The notes below the pieces were generated by a model. The model saw only the letters and a list, made by a program, of their open reading frames with translations, made no database searches and was not told the origin of the DNA. A stretch of DNA of 64,000 bases. It comes from Methanoregulaceae archaeon PtaB.Bin056. Lineage in GTDB: Archaea; Halobacteriota; Methanomicrobia; Methanomicrobiales; Methanospirillaceae. Both the position numbers and the translations under genes were made by a program. The stretch covers positions 89,959 through 153,958 of the forward strand of contig MVQD01000038.1 in the NCBI GenBank assembly GCA_002067095.1, given 5' to 3'. Shown in pieces: positions 2,766-64,000 of this stretch (position 1 is its first letter; each line of letters begins with the position of its first letter).

Positions 2766-3338
2766 TGCGGCTATGCACATCCCGGAGTCACATGAGTGGC
2801 CGGTTCGGGGGCCCCGATTCTCAACGCACTGTTTTCAAGTTCCCTGCCATCGGCTGAACGGATGACCGGGGTTGATGATATATTCAGATCGTGCTCTCCG
2901 GGGTTACCCGTATATGGTGTGACCTTCTGCAGTTACGCATGAGATCCCCCTGTCTTTCCGATCTATCAACACATTGCCGTCCTCGGCCACGCTCCCGCTT
3001 GCGATGCAGCTCTCCCACGTCACCGACCACAAGGACGAGATAGATGATGATACGGTCCACGAAACCCTCCATAATGCTCCTGAAAGAGACGTCCCTTTCA
3101 GGCAAGACCACATGCGAAACGCCTGGAGCGTGAAAGAGTGCGGCAGGGAGTGCAACACCCCAGGCTGCAAGAATGCCCCCTGTTCCCAGTATCGCCTTCT
3201 GCATCGTCGTCTTACTGCACGATCGTCCTGGATAAAGATGAAATTCAGCCTGGTTGCAAATATTTTCGCGCCTCTCGGGGCCTCCAGGAAGGAAGGACAC
3301 CTTTCAATACCCGGGAGGGCGATCTAACAGGGTGAGTG
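2766..3338. other. 570-bp stretch with no confident gene
   Basis: Between polB and cbiA, both on the plus strand. Short open frames exist on both strands but none has a clear ribosome binding site or family likeness. The most protein-like is a minus-strand frame listed separately. No repeat, tRNA or strong terminator was seen. The last bases before cbiA carry GGTGAG, a plausible ribosome binding site. Confidence 0.5.
2884..3204 (-). CDS. Doubtful small membrane-like ORF (possibly degraded)
   Basis: Unrecognised minus-strand frame, about 106 aa from the ATG at 3204. The first 75 residues look protein-like: a hydrophobic N-terminus (AILGTGGILAAWGVALPAAL) and a second hydrophobic run (IIIYLVLVVGDVGEL). 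The tail is unlike a real protein (Arg-rich). A neighbouring minus frame ending at 2904 gives a more natural continuation (GNVLIDRKDRGISCVTAEG), so a frameshift or decay product is possible. There is no clear ribosome binding site before the ATG. It may equally be a chance frame in GC-rich DNA. Confidence 0.2.
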   Translation of the reverse strand: MQKAILGTGGILAAWGVALPAALFHAPGVSHVVLPERDVSFRSIMEGFVDRIIIYLVLVVGDVGELHRKRERGRGRQCVDRSERQGDLMRNCRRSHHIRVTPESTI

Positions 3339-4676
3339 ATGATCCGGATACCGTCAATCCCGAGAATTGTCATTGCCGGGACCCACAGCGGGTGTGGGAA
3401 GACCACGGTCGCACGCGGGATAATGGAGGCGCTTACCCGCAGGGGATACGAGGTCCAGCCCTTCAAGGTGGGGCCTGACTTCATCGACCCGACGCACCAC
3501 TCGGCGATATGCAGGCGGGTTTCACGCAACCTCGATGCATTCATGATGGGGGAGGAAGGGGTACTGGAGACTTTCAGGCGTGCATCAGCAGGAGCGGACA
3601 TCGCGGTCATCGAGGGTGTGATGGGTATGTACGACGGCCTTGACGGGGGAGATGTCGCAAGCACCGCCCACGTGATGCGAATACTCTCTGCACCTGCACT
3701 CCTGGTCACGGATGCCCGGGGGATGTCACGGAGCGTCCATGCCCTTGTGAAAGGGTTCCTCGAGTTCGAGCGGGGGATGAGGATCGGGGGGGTGGTCTTC
3801 AACAGGATCGGGAGCCCGAGGCACCGCCAGTTGATCGACCGCGGCCGGACTGTCCCTGCCATCGGATATCTCCCAAGGACCCCCGGCCTCGAGATAGAGA
3901 GCCGCCACCTGGGCCTCGCGATGGCTCACGAGACCGCACCCACCGCGGGTCTCGGCGAGTTGATGGAGGAACATTGCGACATCGACCAGGTGATAAGGAT
4001 TGCAGGTGAAGCGCCGTTTCTTCCTGCAGGCAGTACAGAAGAGCAAAAGGGGAATGCCAGGGCAAGGATAGGTATCGCGAGGGACGAGGCGTTCTGTTTT
4101 TACTACCAGGACAACCTCGACCTCCTCGAACGTTCCGGGGCAAGGCTTGTACCATTCTCGCCGCAGAGAGACGAACTGCCTGAAGTGGATGCGATATACA
4201 TCGGAGGAGGCTACCCGGAACTCCATGCGGCTGCGCTCGAATCCTCATCCTTCAGGAGCCGGGTTGCGCAGGCCGCATCTGACGGAATGCCCGTCTATGC
4301 CGAGTGCGGGGGGCTCCTCTGCCTCTGCGAATCCCTTGAAACCGACAGGACATACCGGATGGCAGGGCTTCTGCCTGCGGATGCCCGGATGACGGGAACG
4401 GTTCAGGCCCTTGGATACTCAGACGGAGACTGGTTGGGAGGACCCGCCCTCGCGCCCACGTCAGGCCGGATCCTCGGTCACGAGTTCCATTATTCGCAGG
4501 TCGAATGCCGGCAGGACGCAAGGTTTGCCATCATATTGAGACGGGGCAGGGGAATTGAGAACGGAAAGGAGGGGCTGTATGCGGGGGAAACCCTCGCGGC
4601 GTACACCCATGCCTACTTTCAGGCGGAATTCGCCAGGTCGTTTGTGGAGGCGGCATCTGCCTATCGCAGGACCTGA
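3339..4676 (+). CDS. cbiA: Cobyrinate a,c-diamide synthase (CbiA family)
   Basis: ATP- and glutamine-dependent amidation of the a and c acetate side chains of a corrinoid ring. About 445 aa, usual for the family. The N-terminal P-loop reads GTHSGCGKTT (residues about 14-23), followed by the family signature KVGPDFIDPTHH. The C-terminal class I glutamine amidotransferase domain has the nucleophile elbow YAECGG (Cys about 323) and a final His-rich region (HEFHYS, YTHAYF). The start is ATG at 3339 behind GGTGAG; a GTG directly before it (3336) is an alternative. CfbB, which amidates Ni-sirohydrochlorin in coenzyme F430 synthesis, is a close relative in methanogens; I favour CbiA but cannot exclude CfbB by eye. 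Confidence 0.85.
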   Translation: MIRIPSIPRIVIAGTHSGCGKTTVARGIMEALTRRGYEVQPFKVGPDFIDPTHHSAICRRVSRNLDAFMMGEEGVLETFRRASAGADIAVIEGVMGMYDGLDGGDVASTAHVMRILSAPALLVTDARGMSRSVHALVKGFLEFERGMRIGGVVFNRIGSPRHRQLIDRGRTVPAIGYLPRTPGLEIESRHLGLAMAHETAPTAGLGELMEEHCDIDQVIRIAGEAPFLPAGSTEEQKGNARARIGIARDEAFCFYYQDNLDLLERSGARLVPFSPQRDELPEVDAIYIGGGYPELHAAALESSSFRSRVAQAASDGMPVYAECGGLLCLCESLETDRTYRMAGLLPADARMTGTVQALGYSDGDWLGGPALAPTSGRILGHEFHYSQVECRQDARFAIILRRGRGIENGKEGLYAGETLAAYTHAYFQAEFARSFVEAASAYRRT

Positions 4677-4756
4677 ATGAACTGTCTCCTTTTAATCCCC
4701 GGCGCCTCTCCCCTGATCGAAGAACGGCAGGCGGTGGGGATACGAGGTGCGCATTT

Positions 4757-4796
4757 GATTATACCTAAAGGTGGAAACTCATGCAGAGGTGATTAA
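4757..4796 (+). promoter_or_regulatory. Promoter and ribosome binding site of ilvD
   Basis: TATA-like GATTATAC at 4757-4764 lies 33-40 bp before the ilvD ATG, and GAGGTGAT at 4786-4793 is a strong Shine-Dalgarno 3 bp before it. This gives a short leader of roughly 10 nt, and fixes the start at 4797. Confidence 0.55.
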
Positions 4797-6461
4797 ATGA
4801 CGATGCAGCCATTACGCAGTGAGGAGGTGAAGAGAGGATACCAGAGGGCGCCGAACCGGGCGCTCCTCAGGTCCCTCGGCGTCACTGACCGGGAGATTGG
4901 ACTCCCCTACATAGGGATCGCAAATGCCTGGAACGATATTGTACCTGGCCATACCCACCTCCGGATGCTGGCCGGAAAGATCCGCGAGGGCATCGCAGCT
5001 GCCGGCGGAGTGCCGTTCGAGTTCGGCGTGATCGGCATATGCGACGGGGTGGCGATGGGCCACGAGGGGATGAGGTACTCCCTCCCCTCGCGCGAGAATA
5101 TCGCAGATGCCGTGGAGCTGATGGTGCAGGCGCACCGGTTCGACGGGATGGTCCTGCTTGGGACATGCGACAAGATCGTCCCCGGAATGCTGATGGCCGC
5201 CGCCCGCTGCAACATCCCTTCAATCGCGGTTACCGGCGGGGCCATGCTCCCGGGTTACCAGGAAGGCCGTGACCTCTCACTTATCGATGTGTTTGAGGGG
5301 GTGGGAAAGGTTGCGGCAGGCAGCATGAGCGAGGAGGATCTGGTGACCCTCGAATGCGCGGCAATGCCAGGCTGCGGGAGCTGCCAGGGACTGTACACTG
5401 CAAACACCATGGCCTGCATGACAGAAGCGATGGGAATGTCTCTTCCCGGCTGTGCCGCGTTGCCTGCGGTGGAAGCGGCAAAACTGAGAATCGCGAGGGA
5501 GTCCGGCGAACGGATACTGGACCTCGTGAATGAGGGGACCTGCCCCCGCGACATCATCACCCGCGCGAGCCTCGAGAACGCCATCCGCGTAGACATGGCC
5601 CTTGGAGGGTCGACCAACACGGTCCTCCACCTGATGGCCATCGCATCAGAAGCGGAGGTGGACCTTACACTCGACTCGTTCACAAGGATTGGGGAGGAGA
5701 TCCCCCATCTCTGCAACATGATGCCCGCCGGGCCGCATTCCATGCAGGCACTCCACAGGTCGGGGGGCATCCCCGCTGTCCTCAAGGCGATATATGACCA
5801 CCTTGAGGACTCCCCGACGGTTTCAGGCAGGCGGATCAGAGATATCGCGCGCGATGCAAAGGTGCCTTCCCAGAGTATCATCATGAGCACCAGAGATCCG
5901 GTCAATCCTGCCGGGGGATTGAGGATCCTCTTTGGGAGCCTCGCCCCGCAGGGTGCAGTCATCAAGTCGATCGCCGTGAACAGGGACATGTGGACGCATA
6001 CCGGCCCTGCAAGGGTATTTGACGGTGAGCAGGAGGCAATGAAGGCGATTCTCGCCCGGGAGATCCGCGAGGGGGACGTGATCGTGATCAGGTACGAGGG
6101 CCCGAAAGGGGCGCCCGGGATGCCGGAGATGCTCTCACCCACGTCGGCAATCGTGGGTCTCGGGTATTCGCGCGTCGCCCTCGTGACGGACGGCAGGTTC
6201 TCTGGCGGGACGCGCGGGCCGTGCATCGGCCACGTGGCACCAGAGGCTGCGGCCGGGGGGCCAATCGGGCTTGTCAGGGATGGAGACCTGATTGGAATCG
6301 ATCTCCATGCACGGACGCTGGACCTCCTCGTCGACGCATCAGAACTTGAAGAGCGGAAGAAAGGCTGGAGCCCGAAAGAGAGGTCCCTGAAAGGAGTGCT
6401 TGCGCGCTACGCTGCGATGGTGGGACAGGCCGACAGGGGTGCAGTGCTGGAGCGGCGGTGA
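4797..6461 (+). CDS. ilvD: Dihydroxy-acid dehydratase
   Basis: Dehydrates 2,3-dihydroxy-3-methylbutanoate and its isoleucine-pathway analogue to the 2-keto acids, a shared step of valine, leucine and isoleucine synthesis. It is 554 aa, the normal length. Iron-sulfur ligand regions are visible: [10 protein letters not shown] (Cys about 123) and [15 protein letters not shown] (about residues 190-204). The IlvD/Edd signatures [12 protein letters not shown] and [10 protein letters not shown] are intact. The start is set by GAGGTGAT and the family-typical opening [20 protein letters not shown]. The ppk2 ATG follows 7 bp after the stop, so the two may be co-transcribed, though no functional link is obvious. 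Confidence 0.97.
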
Positions 6462-6468
6462 GAAGGTG

Positions 6469-8007
6469 ATGGAACAGGGGAGCGGGGTTCCCGGCATCAC
6501 TCTCCCTGACCATATCTCATCCCACGAGCTGGACGATGACCAGTACCATGCCATCCATGATTCCCAGCGGACCAGGCTTGGAGCACTCCAGCGGCAGGCA
6601 TATGACCTTGGTCTCCCGGTCATCATCCTCTTCGAGGGGTGGTATGGATCTGGGATCTCCCAGATGGTGCATGACCTCAACAGGACGTTGGACCCGCGGG
6701 GTTTCTCGTACCATCCCATCGCAGCCCCCGGTCCACTCGCAAGGGAGCACCATTTTCTCTGGAGGTTCTGGATAAGGACTCCCGCAAAAGGACGGATTGC
6801 CATCTTTGACAGGGGCTGGTATGCACGGACCATCCTCGACCGTATGGACCCGAGGAAAGAGAGTCGAGTATCCGGTTCGCATGTCAAGGAGATTCTCGGC
6901 TTTGAGCGCACCCTTGCAGACAGCGGAGTCGCCCTCGTGAAGATGTTCCTGCACATCAGTAAAAAGGAGCAGAAGGAGAGACTTCGGAGGCTCAAAAAAG
7001 ACCCTCTGACGATGGGATACCTCGAAGGCGACCTGGACCGGTACATCAAATATCGCGAGTATCATTCGCTCGTAGAGGACCTCCTTAGCCGGACAAGCAC
7101 CGGCCAGTCACCCTGGCACGTGATCGATGCGGCAGAGAAGAGATATACCGCAGTGACCGTCTTTGACACGATAATCCGGCGGATGGAGAACGCAATCAAA
7201 GAGTCTGCACATGATTATGCCCAACCGGGAAAAACCCCGGTAAATCACGGTAAACATCGATCCCCGAAAGGATTCTCTCCACTTGGAAACGCCGATCTCA
7301 CCCTCTCACTCGACAGAACAGAATACGATTCCCGCATGAACTCGCTCGGGAATGCCCTTGCCGAGAGCCAGATAAGGCTTTACAAGGAGAAAGTCCCCCT
7401 CATTCTCCTCTTCGAAGGATGGGACGCGGCAGGGAAAGGTGGAAATATCATGAGGGTGACCCGCTCGCTCAATCCGAGGGGATATTCAGTGATGCCTGTC
7501 GGGCCACCGGATGCAGGCGAGCGCGCCCACCATTACCTCTGGCGGTTCTTCCCTGCACTCCCTGCACGGGGTCACATCACCATCTTCGATCGGAGCTGGT
7601 ACGGCCGGGTGCTCGTCGAGCGGATCGAAGGTCTCTGCACCGAGGACGAATGGAACAGGGCATACCGCGAGATACGGGAGTTCGAAGGCTCTCTCGTGGA
7701 TGACGGCGCGATTATCCGCAAGTTCTGGCTGCATATTGACAGGGACGAGCAGATCAGGCGTTTCAACGAGCGTATGGCCGATCAGGACAAACAGTGGAAG
7801 ATCACCGATGAAGACTGGAGAAACCGCGCACGCTGGGACGAGTATGAAGAAGCGGTGGACCAGATGATAGCCCAGACCAGCACTCCGGATGCCCCCTGGA
7901 CCATCGTGGAGGCAAACGACAAGTACTATTCCAGAGTAAAAACTCTCCAGGTCATTGTCGATGCGATCGACTGCTGCCTTGCTGACAGGTCCTGTTCACC
8001 TGCGTGA
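6469..8007 (+). CDS. ppk2: Two-domain polyphosphate kinase 2 (polyphosphate:AMP phosphotransferase type)
   Basis: Transfers phosphate between polyphosphate and nucleotides; two-domain PPK2 proteins are generally AMP-phosphorylating (class II). It is 512 aa from the ATG at 6469 behind GAGAAGGTG. The C-terminal domain (about 270-512) has a complete Walker A (FEGWDAAGKGG), Walker B (FDRSWYGRVLVER) and the lid region KQWKITDEDWRNR. The N-terminal domain (about 20-250) is a divergent copy: its P-loop is EGWYGSGIS, lacking the catalytic Lys, while FDRGWYART is kept. So the N-terminal lobe is probably structural, as known for this class. It may link polyphosphate stores to AMP/ADP recycling. Confidence 0.9.
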   Translation: MEQGSGVPGITLPDHISSHELDDDQYHAIHDSQRTRLGALQRQAYDLGLPVIILFEGWYGSGISQMVHDLNRTLDPRGFSYHPIAAPGPLAREHHFLWRFWIRTPAKGRIAIFDRGWYARTILDRMDPRKESRVSGSHVKEILGFERTLADSGVALVKMFLHISKKEQKERLRRLKKDPLTMGYLEGDLDRYIKYREYHSLVEDLLSRTSTGQSPWHVIDAAEKRYTAVTVFDTIIRRMENAIKESAHDYAQPGKTPVNHGKHRSPKGFSPLGNADLTLSLDRTEYDSRMNSLGNALAESQIRLYKEKVPLILLFEGWDAAGKGGNIMRVTRSLNPRGYSVMPVGPPDAGERAHHYLWRFFPALPARGHITIFDRSWYGRVLVERIEGLCTEDEWNRAYREIREFEGSLVDDGAIIRKFWLHIDRDEQIRRFNERMADQDKQWKITDEDWRNRARWDEYEEAVDQMIAQTSTPDAPWTIVEANDKYYSRVKTLQVIVDAIDCCLADRSCSPA

Positions 8008-8084
8008 GGAGACTGGCCACTTTCATCAGTTCTTATTCTGCGCATCACAAAAATACCCATGTTTTTCGAAAAATCAGCTCGCCA

Positions 8085-8118
8085 TGCCTCAAAAGGCATT
8101 TGCAAATGCTTTAATTTT
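8085..8118 (+). promoter_or_regulatory. Palindrome abutting TATA box of the mini zinc protein gene
   Basis: GCATTTGCAAATGC at 8096-8109 is a perfect 14-bp palindrome. It touches the TATA-like CTTTAATTTT (8109-8118). A second inverted repeat, TGCCT-CAAA-AGGCA (8085-8098), overlaps its left arm. The TATA centre is about 30 bp before the ATG at 8143, so the transcript should be leaderless or nearly so. The layout is that of an operator at the BRE/TATA site. Confidence 0.5.
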
Positions 8119-8142
8119 GTCCCTGTTGACATTACTCTGAGA

Positions 8143-8343
8143 ATGATGACCGACCAGGAACACCCGCGGTACGAGAAGGCCCGTTGCTGTCACTGCGAAG
8201 GGGCCGGATGCATCTATTGCGACAAGACAGGCTACGTGCTGGTGAGAACTCCACCCTGCCTCTGCAGGCATTGTAGCGGGGCCGGATGCATCTATTGCGG
8301 GTTCACAGGCTGGGCGGGGCTGAAAGGGAAATTCGACGAGTAG
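8143..8343 (+). CDS. 66-aa protein made of four DnaJ-type CxxCxGxG zinc motifs
   Basis: I do not recognise this as a named family. The protein contains four motifs of the DnaJ cysteine-rich type: C15-C18-EGAG, C23-C26-DKTG, C41-C44-SGAG (with C39 nearby) and C49-C52-GFTG, i.e. two copies of a 26-residue unit. That is the number of motifs in the zinc domain of DnaJ, where they form two zinc sites, but here with no J domain and no substrate-binding domain. Flanks are short and charged, with no membrane segment. Start: ATG at 8143 (a second ATG follows at 8146) about 30 bp after a TATA box, so no ribosome binding site is expected. It could be a zinc-dependent thiol/chaperone helper or a small regulator; function unknown. 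Confidence 0.75.
   Translation: MMTDQEHPRYEKARCCHCEGAGCIYCDKTGYVLVRTPPCLCRHCSGAGCIYCGFTGWAGLKGKFDE
8200..8299 (+). repeat. 22-bp exact direct repeat, 78-bp period
   Basis: The bases at 8200-8221 recur exactly at 8278-8299. They encode the GAGCIYC core of the two 26-residue units in the mini zinc protein. Such identity inside diverged flanks points to an internal duplication that kept, or reconverged on, its core. Confidence 0.8.
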
Positions 8344-8391
8344 ATACGCAGGCATACCTGCCGATTCCGGCGGAGAACCGTGTTATACTGA

Positions 8392-8398
8392 TTTTTTT
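8392..8398 (+). terminator. Oligo-T terminator after mini zinc gene
   Basis: Seven T residues about 49 bp after the stop at 8343, a typical archaeal oligo-T terminator position. The next gene is convergent. Confidence 0.4.
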
Positions 8399-8457
8399 GG
8401 GTATTCAGTTTCAGGAAGCAGGACCGCGTTCATCGGTTTTTGCCTCAATCAGACGTA

Positions 8458-10371
8458 TTAATCCCTGCACCTGACGATTACCAGCGTGATATCGTCGGAC
8501 TGCATCGCACCCCCGGCAAACTCTGTCACCCTCCTGTAGATGGTATCGAGTATCTCCCTGGCACTCATGTCCCTGGACGCACACACAGCATCCATGAGCC
8601 TCCCTTCCCCGAACTCCTCGTCATTCTGGTTGAATGCCTCAGTCACCCCGTCAGTATAGAGGACGAGGACGTCCCCTGTGTCAAGAGTGAGGTGGCCGAC
8701 CGAATAGCTCATGTCCGGCATCACTCCCATTGCCATCCCGGTGGGGAGAAGGCTGTGCAGCCGTTTCTCCTTCCGGCAGTAATGCAGCGGGGGGTTATGC
8801 CCGGCATTTACGTAACTGACTTTCCCAGTCTCTTTCTCAAGGGTGCAGTAAAAGAGCGTCACGAACATCCCTGCTGCAGCATCGGCAGCAATCAGGCTGT
8901 TTGATTCCTCTATCGTCTCTTCCACCCGATTGTCGGCGGTTGCAATCGCGCGGAGTATGGAGCGGGAGAGGGCCATGAAGAGCGCGGCAGGAATGCCCTT
9001 TCCTGCCACATCGGCGATGACCAGGCCAAGACTGCGCTCGTCCAGGGGAATGAAGTCGTAGAAGTCCCCACCCACTTCCTGCGCCGGGATATTCATGGCG
9101 GCAATCTCGAACCTCGCCGATTCCGGGATTTCTCTGGGAAGAAAGGTCCTCTGGATCTCGGCGGCGATCCTGATCTCTGCCTTCTCGCGTTCGATCTCCC
9201 GTGAAAACTGCTGTATCTTGCCGATCATCAGGTTGATGCTCTCCTCCAGGCGCCGAAATTCGGGGTTCGGCATGCTTCGGATGGTGTGGGTGAGATCGCC
9301 CTGTGCAATCCTGCTGACATCCTCAAGTATCTCGGTGATGGGTGTAGTGAGAAACCGGGCGATGACGTAGACCATGACGATCCCCATCACCACGGCAATG
9401 ACCCCGATGAGTGTGTAATAGAGGAGGATCTGTGAGAGTACTTTTCGAAGTGGTTCCTGGGTATAGGTTATCTCCGCGACAAGGCTCATATCTGACGCGG
9501 TGGATGACTCCTTGAGGTTGATATAGAGGTAGTGGAGGCGCCTGTCTCCATCCTGCTCCGAGATCTCAATGTCTCTTTCGGTCGTAAAGATCTCTTTAAT
9601 GAGCGTCTGGTTTACGGCCGTATGGGGGTTGACACCCCGTTCCAGGAGAAGATTTCCATTTACGTCAAAGATGCGTATCAGTTCGATCGATGGGTTCATC
9701 TCCTGTATCCGTCGCGTCACCTCAACGTAGGAGAGTTCCGACCGCTGGCTCTCGAATCCCTCCATGACCAGGCCCATCTCCAGGAGGTAGCGGTGATCAG
9801 GGGTCGGAAAATAGGCGAATTTCCGAAGTTGCCCGGAGACAGTGCCTTCCGTGGTGTTCACGACAGAGCGGACCACCCGGTCGGCTACGAATTCATTGCC
9901 TTCCCGGATACGGGTGATGGAACGGTAAAATTCGGGGTAATTTTTGAAGTCGAGGTACATTACTTCGGGGACCGTGGAGGCGACAATAACCCCGCTCTCG
10001 TTTATGATGTAGAGGTCAAGCTGCCCCCGAAAGTCGTCATCCAGGTCATCCCGCACAGCGGGCATGTCGATGCGGGTGATATCTCCTTCGGATGCGTGAT
10101 ATGCCGACAGGTACCCTGAAAACGCCTCCTCCATCCGGGAATCAAGCGTGCTGTCATAGAGGGAGAGTCCTCTATCGGCGAGAAGAACCGACTCTACCAG
10201 GTACATCTCGGTGAAAAGCGCCTGCTCGCGATCCTGCCGCACAGTCCATGAATAGGCCTGCGCATATGCGGCGGCCATCAGGAACATGATCACAATGAGG
10301 ATGATCGCCGTGATACACAATATGAGAGAAGAACGAAGGGAGAGCCTGGAGAACGGTGAGGACACTGCCAT
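8458..10371 (-). CDS. Membrane-anchored SpoIIE/RsbU-type PP2C phosphatase with HAMP and extracytoplasmic sensor
   Basis: 637 aa. TM1 at about 15-37, an extracytoplasmic Cache-like sensor region (about 40-310), TM2 about 314-340, HAMP about 338-392, a short coiled linker, then the PP2C_SIG domain (about 425-637). Metal-site motifs are complete: GGDFYD (434-439), DVAGKG (454-459), NAGHNPP (522-528), YTDG (572-575), SDD (625-627). The family dephosphorylates Ser/Thr on anti-sigma antagonist (STAS) proteins in bacteria. No STAS, RsbW kinase or sigma factor is encoded nearby, and archaea lack sigma factors, so the target here is unknown. Start: ATG at 10371 with GGTGAT six bases upstream. Confidence 0.9.
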   Translation of the reverse strand: MAVSSPFSRLSLRSSLILCITAIILIVIMFLMAAAYAQAYSWTVRQDREQALFTEMYLVESVLLADRGLSLYDSTLDSRMEEAFSGYLSAYHASEGDITRIDMPAVRDDLDDDFRGQLDLYIINESGVIVASTVPEVMYLDFKNYPEFYRSITRIREGNEFVADRVVRSVVNTTEGTVSGQLRKFAYFPTPDHRYLLEMGLVMEGFESQRSELSYVEVTRRIQEMNPSIELIRIFDVNGNLLLERGVNPHTAVNQTLIKEIFTTERDIEISEQDGDRRLHYLYINLKESSTASDMSLVAEITYTQEPLRKVLSQILLYYTLIGVIAVVMGIVMVYVIARFLTTPITEILEDVSRIAQGDLTHTIRSMPNPEFRRLEESINLMIGKIQQFSREIEREKAEIRIAAEIQRTFLPREIPESARFEIAAMNIPAQEVGGDFYDFIPLDERSLGLVIADVAGKGIPAALFMALSRSILRAIATADNRVEETIEESNSLIAADAAAGMFVTLFYCTLEKETGKVSYVNAGHNPPLHYCRKEKRLHSLLPTGMAMGVMPDMSYSVGHLTLDTGDVLVLYTDGVTEAFNQNDEEFGEGRLMDAVCASRDMSAREILDTIYRRVTEFAGGAMQSDDITLVIVRCRD

Positions 10372-61617: not shown

Positions 61618-62382
61618 TTAAACCTTACTGGAAAAAGCAGTTTTTTCCACGTGATCCAGGACATAGCGCCGGATCCTGGCAAAATCCGTGCCCGTCCTCT
61701 CCCTTGGGCGCGGAAGATTGATCGGTACGATATCCCTAATAGTCCCGGGGCGTGCCGTGAGGACCACCACCCTGTCCGAGAGGAAGACTGCCTCGTCCAC
61801 GCTGTGAGTGACAAAAATGACGGTCTTCTTTGTCTTTTCCCAGATTTCCAGCAACTCCCGCTGGAGCATGTTCCTTGTCTGGGCATCAAGGGCACCGAAC
61901 GGTTCGTCCATCAGAAGGATCTGCGGATCAATTGCAAGGGCCCTCGCAACGGCAACCCGCTGGCGCATGCCGCCCGAGAGTTCGAAGGGATAGTTCTCCG
62001 CAAAATCGACGAGTCCCACCATTTCCAGGAACTCGAGAGCCTTCGCCCTCCTCCGTGGCTTCTCCATCCCCTTCATCTCGAGGCCAAACGCGATGTTGTC
62101 GAGCACCGTCCTCCAGGGATAGAGTGAGTATTCCTGGAATATCATGGCCATCCTTGGGCATGGGCCCTCAATCCTGTTCCCGTCAAGGAGAATGGATCCC
62201 CCCGTCGCGTGGTCGAGGCCGGCTATGATCCGCAGAAGGGTGGTCTTCCCGCATCCCGAAGGGCCGAGTATGGAGACGAACTCGCCGTCCGCCACTTCCA
62301 GGTTTATGTGGGAAAGGGCCTGCACCTCAGCCTTCCCTTCTCCCAGAAACGACTTGGAGATGCCCTTCAGCACGAGGCTCAC
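61618..62382 (-). CDS. ABC importer ATPase (nitrate/sulfonate/taurine class)
   Basis: 254 aa. Walker A GPSGCGKTT (about 40-48), Q-loop MIFQEYSLYPW, signature ELSGGMRQRVAVARAL, Walker B LLMDEPFGALD, switch THSVDEA. The tail (TARPGTIRDIVPINLPRPRERTGTDF) is typical of SsuB/TauB. Acts with the permease and binding protein encoded just upstream. Substrate cannot be read from the ATPase. Confidence 0.93.
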   Translation of the reverse strand: MSLVLKGISKSFLGEGKAEVQALSHINLEVADGEFVSILGPSGCGKTTLLRIIAGLDHATGGSILLDGNRIEGPCPRMAMIFQEYSLYPWRTVLDNIAFGLEMKGMEKPRRRAKALEFLEMVGLVDFAENYPFELSGGMRQRVAVARALAIDPQILLMDEPFGALDAQTRNMLQRELLEIWEKTKKTVIFVTHSVDEAVFLSDRVVVLTARPGTIRDIVPINLPRPRERTGTDFARIRRYVLDHVEKTAFSSKV

Positions 62383-62419: not shown

Positions 62420-63184
62420 TCATCGCTCAAGGCCCCTCCATGAGAACCACTTCTTCTCGACACGCTTGAAGACAAAGTCAATCAGGAGGCCAATAACGCC
62501 GATCACCACCATCCCGGCAATGATCAGGTTGGTCTGGCCGAAATTGTATGCATAAAGGATGAGGTATCCGAGCCCCTTTGAGATGCCCGGGAGCCATTCC
62601 GCGGCGACGACGCACATCCATGCAATTCCAAAACCTACCCGGAGACCCGTCCAGATGGTGGGAGCGGCCCCGGGGAGGACCACTTTTGTCATGATCTGCC
62701 GCTCCTTCGCCCCGAGCGTGGTCGCTACTTCAAGCCATGTCTTCTTGACCGATCTCACGCCGTCAACAGTGTTCAGAAGGATGGGGAAGAACGCACCGAT
62801 GAAGATGATGAATACGATTGAGGTGAGCCCGATCTTGAACCATGCAAGTGCCAGCGGTACCCAGGCAAGGGGAGGGATTGGCCTGAGAAGCTCGATGGTT
62901 GAGTCAAAGAAATCGTTGAGCAGGGGTGACCGCCCCATGAGGATGCCGATTGGTATTGCGACCGCTGCGGCGACGAGGAACCCCAGGCCCACGCGCTGGA
63001 TACTGATGGCTGCATTCTCCACCATGCTCCCTGTCCCAAGGGTGTACTCCGGGCTGAACGGATGCAGGAGAATGGGTATGACCGTCTCAAGCGAGGGAAC
63101 GATGAATGGATTGTTGACGACCCATGATACCAACTCCCACCCAATGAGAAGAAGAATGGGGAGGAGTAACCGGAGATACCTCAT
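62420..63184 (-). CDS. ABC importer permease (SsuC/TauC-like)
   Basis: 254 aa from the ATG at 63184 with AGGGGAT upstream. Six membrane helices (about 5-25, 63-85, 95-135, 175-200, 215-240). The EAA coupling loop reads EVATTLGAKERQIMTKVVLPGAAPTIWTGL (about 152-182). Twelve bases separate it from the upstream binding-protein gene. Confidence 0.93.
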   Translation of the reverse strand: MRYLRLLLPILLLIGWELVSWVVNNPFIVPSLETVIPILLHPFSPEYTLGTGSMVENAAISIQRVGLGFLVAAAVAIPIGILMGRSPLLNDFFDSTIELLRPIPPLAWVPLALAWFKIGLTSIVFIIFIGAFFPILLNTVDGVRSVKKTWLEVATTLGAKERQIMTKVVLPGAAPTIWTGLRVGFGIAWMCVVAAEWLPGISKGLGYLILYAYNFGQTNLIIAGMVVIGVIGLLIDFVFKRVEKKWFSWRGLER

Positions 63185-63196
63185 TATCCCCTAAGT

Positions 63197-64000
63197 TTAT
63201 CCTTCCTTGACTGATAAACCGCTTGCTTCCAGGGAGTAGCGGATCATGACGTCCTGGATCGACCCCTTGCCGGGAGCGGCGATCTTGAGCGGCTTTCCGG
63301 CAGCGGAGCGCTCCTTTGCCCATGCGACAAAACTGTTCCAGTCAGTGGCAGGAGAGTCCTCCGTCACCACGACGCCGGAACCTTCGAAATTGATCGCCAT
63401 GATGATCTTGACTGGCGTTCCCTTGTCTGCCGCAGAGATTGCGGGGGGGTTTCCTACCAGCGCAAACTGGATGTTGTCAGTTGCCATCAGCTGCATCAGC
63501 TGCGGGCCGGCATCCCCTGATATCAGTTTCAGCTCGGCAACCTTCTCTCCATTCACCATGAGATCCGCAGTATCGGGCCTTGATGCAGCAGGGTCCCTTG
63601 GCTTGAGGGCAATCCCGTATGTATCGTTGAAGTACTCCCACTTCTTGATGGCGACAAAGAGCGCGGCATGATGATCAGACATCAGGTAGCCCACGCCGAC
63701 TGCGCCCTCCACCGGAGTAGGTGTCGCGATCATCCCCTTGTCCACCATGGACTGCGCTGCGTCGTATGGGGTAGTGTCGAAGAGGAGTGCTTTTGAATCC
63801 GCGTCCGGCGAGTCCTTCAGTGACCCGGTGAGCACCTGGAGTTCTCTTAATGCATGGACGAATTCGATGTTTGAGTCCATCCACTGTTCCGTGGGCTCAT
63901 TTTCGAATTTCACCGTCGGGAAGGCTCGTTTGAGTACGTCTACCGATGAGACCGAGATATCGCCGTAGGTGAAATTGCCCTTCCCCGCCAGCCATTCTGC
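63197..64000 (-). CDS. ABC importer substrate-binding protein, 5' end outside window, lobes in unusual order
   Basis: The frame is open from the right edge to the stop at 63197 (267 aa visible). The first 90 visible residues look like the usual C-terminal part of an NMT1/SsuA-type binding protein (VSSVDVLKRAFPTVKFENEP, ELQVLTGSLKD, LLFDTTPYDAAQ). They are followed, not preceded, by what is normally the N-terminal lobe: GAVGVGYLMSDHHAALFVA, ISGDAGPQLMQLMATDNIQFALVGNPPAISAAD, then GKGSIQDVMIRYSLEASGLS, and the protein stops there. So it is either circularly permuted or a longer protein with a truncated second domain. The permease gene follows after 12 bp, leaving no room for a missing half. Confidence 0.8.
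   Translation of the reverse strand, partial: AEWLAGKGNFTYGDISVSSVDVLKRAFPTVKFENEPTEQWMDSNIEFVHALRELQVLTGSLKDSPDADSKALLFDTTPYDAAQSMVDKGMIATPTPVEGAVGVGYLMSDHHAALFVAIKKWEYFNDTYGIALKPRDPAASRPDTADLMVNGEKVAELKLISGDAGPQLMQLMATDNIQFALVGNPPAISAADKGTPVKIIMAINFEGSGVVVTEDSPATDWNSFVAWAKERSAAGKPLKIAAPGKGSIQDVMIRYSLEASGLSVKEG

Follow-up and report, generated by a model that had tools for sequence, protein, structure and literature searches.

The analyzed window is a 64,000-nucleotide stretch of the 2.24-Mb draft genome of Methanoregulaceae archaeon PtaB.Bin056 (G000; the window lies on the 188-kb contig C38), which comprises 106 contigs. The right end of the window holds genes of an ABC importer, all on the negative strand. 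The ATPase gene (61618..62382; PF00005) is SaoA/NtrCD/TauB-like, and the permease gene (62420..63184; PF00528) is TauC/SaoP/NtrB-like. The gene for their substrate-binding protein (SBP) is cut by the window end, so that positions 63197..64000 encode residues about 145 to 411 and the stop codon. This frame is open, with neither a stop nor a frameshift, and runs on past the window for another 432 bp, up to an ATG at L002:4391 (minus strand), giving a complete protein of 411 amino acids. Its stop codon is followed after 12 bp by the ATG of the permease at 63184. The permease and the ATPase, the cognate partners of the SBP, sit in its own operon. The conserved layout of this operon usually consists of a divergent HTH gene followed by the genes for the binding protein, the permease, and the ATPase; the regulator combines an HTH_3 domain with a weak PrpR_N-like part that scores below the cut-off.

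The 411-residue SBP begins with a signal peptide that ends in the lipobox LIAGC and is followed by a Pro/Thr-rich spacer. This lipoprotein signal, MKMSHACATIGVLLCAALIAGC, was read by eye, and homologues have similar starts. Then comes the half that is C-terminal in canonical proteins (in-window part, 63713..64000, negative strand), with the motif series GTDQIDGYIAWQPF, PPEGKWKDHPCC, and LLFDTTPYDAA. The last of these corresponds to the canonical C terminus and leads into a linker of about 15 residues. The old N-terminal half (residues 241 to 411; 63200..63712, negative strand) closes the protein with VGVGYLMSDHHA, GDAGPQLM, GNPPAI, GSGVVV, PGKGSIQDV, GLSVKEG, and the stop codon. It ends at about position 168 to 171 of the canonical profile, the point from which the half that opens the protein continues the profile. 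Canonical relatives end with the equivalent of LFDTTPYDAAQ (in L078, for example, ELFDVSFYEKARGE is followed by the stop codon), and their mature proteins begin with the equivalent of VGYLMSDHHAALFV. The uninterrupted frame, the order of the motifs, and the permease 12 bp away had all been described in a sequence-only reading of the window and were all seen here; the extension past the window that it called for yielded one intact protein with its own lipoprotein signal.

That reading had proposed a circular permutation, and profile comparisons bear this out. On the native SBP, PF13379 matched in two stretches of reversed order, profile positions 157 to 252 coming first at residues 46 to 149 (E = 6.7e-29; 101.9 bits, above the curated gathering cut-off of 24.7 bits). 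When the sequence was rotated, the same model matched in one stretch covering positions 11 to 252 of 252 (E = 2.9e-32; 112.9 bits). A collinear match was therefore absent from the native protein and appeared only upon rotation, and the E values of both searches exclude a chance match. TIGR01728 (SsuA_fam) also matched in two stretches, at 83.0 bits, below its curated cut-off of 163.5 bits; the canonical protein of L078 scored 188.7 bits with this model.

For an independent comparison, a canonical-order HMM was built from 24 canonical homologues and applied to native sequences and to doubled copies, which permit any rotation. The best match of the native SBP scored 103 bits, and that of the doubled copy 190 bits, as a single match over profile positions 36 to 334. 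Scores rose upon doubling in most of the 53 permuted (class I) proteins tested and in 0 of the 24 canonical ones. In a few permuted proteins with over-long predicted N termini or divergent sequence, the doubled copy failed to merge into one match. Conserved residues were retained on both sides of the cut: the canonical and permuted groups have in common G248, H254, G309, G327, P330, G351, G379, and Q393 in the old N-terminal half and P71, G82, C102, and C103 in the old C-terminal half.

Each part of the canonical profile was found once in the SBP, with none absent and none repeated. The domain is therefore whole and did not arise by a duplication plus truncation, and the one-and-a-half-domain protein suggested as an alternative in the sequence-only reading is not what the gene encodes. 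Duplication followed by truncation is the route usually assumed for permuted proteins, and suitable gene pairs exist, a canonical and a permuted gene adjoining in L094 and two permuted copies standing in tandem in L062. However, the full gene holds a signal, one C-terminal half, and one N-terminal half, with no part of the profile present twice, nor does it hold a complete binding protein upstream of a decayed tail. As the outcome behind the window gene, either arrangement is extremely unlikely, and duplication-truncation is ruled out by the full sequence. We conclude with high confidence that the product of the gene is a type II (SsuA/TauA/NMT1-like) substrate-binding lipoprotein with a natural circular permutation, which acts as the receptor for an ABC importer of three genes controlled by a divergent HTH regulator.

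We next consider how common this order is. Homologues at E ≤ 1e-15 were present in 120 of the 232 genomes of Methanomicrobiales, and all intact open reading frames in this order whose arrangement was checked were permuted. The closest named homologue, from a Methanolinea metagenome-assembled genome, is 93% identical to the window SBP. The permuted proteins fall into a close group (39 to 100% identity) and a paralogous one (about 30 to 35%). An error of assembly or binning could be suspected in a draft genome of 106 contigs, but the order of the halves, the breakpoint, and the operon are all alike in dozens of independent assemblies that span five Methanomicrobiales families. A number of the carriers are single-contig assemblies, so the arrangement is no assembly artefact; this recurrence rules out such an explanation, to which we give practically no credence.

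The search outside Methanomicrobiales turned up one permuted protein of the same group, hereafter PI; it is encoded in a Methanophagales genome (L008, which is contig G369:C58) and is the sole case among the 51 genomes of that family that were searched. A scan of viral contigs for further homologues found none, and matches in a plasmid collection covered at most 79% and fell into two pieces. The paralogous group (L063 to L075) has its own permease and ATPase. In several of its members the HPCC motif has been lost (for example, KWDNAAINV in L064), and the group probably binds a different ligand.

Some loci hold an additional gene. In L094, a canonical SBP-like protein without an evident signal peptide (2950-3828) is encoded directly upstream of the permuted SBP (3890-4939), both on the positive strand and in one operon. 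In L062, tandem permuted genes (6070-7296 and 7431-8642, negative strand) precede a single permease and ATPase.

A second clade of permuted proteins, PA, occurs in families f9 (which we take to be an Archaeoglobaceae-like family; e.g., the single-contig genome G330, which encodes a protein of about 340 amino acids at C1:577078-578082), f15, f16, f26, f28, f30, f31, and f36. These proteins are about 340 to 370 amino acids long, with the order of PI and a nearly identical cut. Canonical order is retained in many relatives from the same archaeal phylum (L076 to L078, L082, L102, and L107 to L124), some of them within the same archaeal order, and in the nearest bacterial relative (L010, Nitrospirota). 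The possibility, raised in the sequence-only reading, that the family normally has the permuted order thus holds for the immediate subfamily, which is always permuted, and fails for the wider SsuA/NMT1-like family, which is canonical in these relatives and in the PDB homologues whose match positions were listed.

To place the two clades, trees were computed from alignments rearranged back to canonical order. In the binding-protein tree, PI (Methanomicrobiales and L008) formed one clade (96/83) and PA another (100/99), and canonical L010 joined PI to the exclusion of PA (99/94). The L010 permease likewise grouped with PI in the permease tree (99/99), and three inserted segments are common to L010 and PI and absent from PA and from other canonical proteins. 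The breakpoints of PI and PA are nearly identical, as one ancient permutation behind both would predict, and AU tests of a single PI+PA clade did not reject it with the binding protein alone (p = 0.114) or the permease alone (p = 0.09). The concatenated data did (p = 0.007), a result that leans on L010, a long-branch canonical sequence and the only one of its kind in the trees. A single origin seems to us rather unlikely. We favor two permutations that arose independently and have almost the same cut, because of the placement of L010, the concatenated AU test, and the insertions that L010 and PI have in common.

In two further proteins, each from one draft genome, the cut lies at the interlobe hinge, giving the order signal, second lobe, first lobe. 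The SsuA-like SBP of L100 (2871-3956, positive strand; G266, f14) has retained its Tat-type lipoprotein signal and has a permease downstream; its counterpart in the congener G239 is 70 to 84% identical and canonical in order. The SBP of L101 (3433-4581, negative strand; G494, f10) has retained a PGF-CTERM-like C-terminal tail (TPGFTAI...), which now stands behind the old N-lobe; in the canonical sisters (L108 to L110 and L123), the same type of tail follows the second lobe. Both are possibly real, young permutation events, an assembly error being conceivable for each. A single origin of all permuted proteins, L100 and L101 included, was rejected (AU test, p = 2e-46). If these two proteins are real, neither shares an origin with PI and PA. 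We judge the case evenly balanced that permutation is recurrent in archaeal SsuA/NMT1-like SBPs, with at least two old, widespread events (PI and PA) and two young hinge cuts, up to four independent events within one family of one phylum, and is possibly favored by the mode of membrane anchoring.

The window SBP is best read, from its sequence and its operon, as a functional, lipid-anchored receptor for an importer of the sulfonate/taurine/nitrate type. Compared with canonical relatives, the chain is opened within the second lobe, where a surface segment follows the PGxGSIQD helix (canonical profile position about 170), and the linker of about 15 residues joins the former C and N termini. Since both halves have retained the conserved positions, the binding cleft is expected to be complete. 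The permuted chain is predicted to fold into a single, ordinary two-lobed periplasmic binding protein (PBP), whose cleft would bind a small anionic solute of the sulfonate/taurine/nitrate class, close, and dock on the permease as usual. If the fold is normal, the membrane anchor would sit on the second lobe rather than on the first. An AlphaFold model computed from an alignment of six sequences was poor (pLDDT of 58.5), and a Foldseek comparison of it with the PDB gave no PBP match; the model is given no weight here, and the single PBP fold is predicted from the sequence.

The halves might instead pair between two chains, as in a domain-swapped dimer, an arrangement with which the sequence is compatible. 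However, the old N and C termini lie near one another in type II PBPs, and the linker that joins them here is short. In addition, the crystal structure of the permuted SBP Tp0684 shows a bilobed fold like that of other ligand-binding proteins (PMC4990184). We therefore regard a swapped dimer as very unlikely and a single PBP formed within one chain as the better account.

On the Methanophagales contig L008, genes for ComA, ComB, and a ComDE-like thiamine pyrophosphate enzyme of coenzyme M biosynthesis (48-2565, positive strand) lie directly upstream of the permuted SBP, the permeases, and the ATPase. Coenzyme M genes precede the permuted gene in L008 only; the neighborhood may point to a ligand that is a sulfonate or is related to coenzyme M, and is taken here only as a lead. 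A literature search for a paper on SaoX, an NCBIfam name that matched weakly, gave nothing relevant.

Permuted receptors of this kind are widespread within one methanogen order and present in other archaea as well, yet annotation has missed their permuted nature, because the family models yield half-matches only. Repeated permutation alongside canonical sisters, such as the congener that is 70 to 84% identical, would allow its causes to be tested, including anchoring, export, folding order, and ligand range. Permuted SBPs are also ready-made scaffolds for the design of biosensors.

The window SBP is homologous over the whole canonical profile to SsuA/TauA/NMT1-like SBPs (PF13379, PF09084, and TIGR01728; PDB entries 6ssy [taurine], 2x26 [SsuA], 2g29 [NrtA], and 3un6), and its operon is like theirs, with an NtrB/TauC-type permease and an NtrD/TauB-type ATPase. 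The PDB homologues with listed match positions have the usual order, whereas the halves of the window SBP are swapped. The canonical HxCC-type NMT1-like proteins (L076 to L078, L082, L102, and L107 to L124; Nitrospirota L010 and L128) have the HxCC and GSIQD motifs and the same types of permease and ATPase as the window SBP, and differ from it in their canonical order.

Functional natural circular permutations that spread are uncommon, and among ABC-importer receptors we found a single described example, which belongs to a different structural class. No permuted NMT1/SsuA-like protein is described in the literature searched, which covers few subscription journals, and the sole relevant permuted binding protein in it is Tp0684 (MglB-2) from Treponema pallidum and its relatives. 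This "Type Ic / Cluster Bc" protein is a naturally permuted glucose receptor of an ABC importer and binds its ligand (PMC4990184). Tp0684 is a membrane-tethered lipoprotein, and its authors proposed a link between permutation and tethering (PMC4990184); by analogy, anchoring and permutation may be linked in archaeal SBPs as well. PDB sequence searches with the window SBP and with L079 gave no MglB-type homology; apart from one weak, unrelated match, all proteins listed were of the NMT1/SsuA/Nrt type. Tp0684 is a Type I (cluster B) sugar SBP that was cut in the first lobe, its first three strands having moved to the end (PMC4990184), whereas the window SBP is NMT1/SsuA-like and archaeal, with its main cut in the second lobe.
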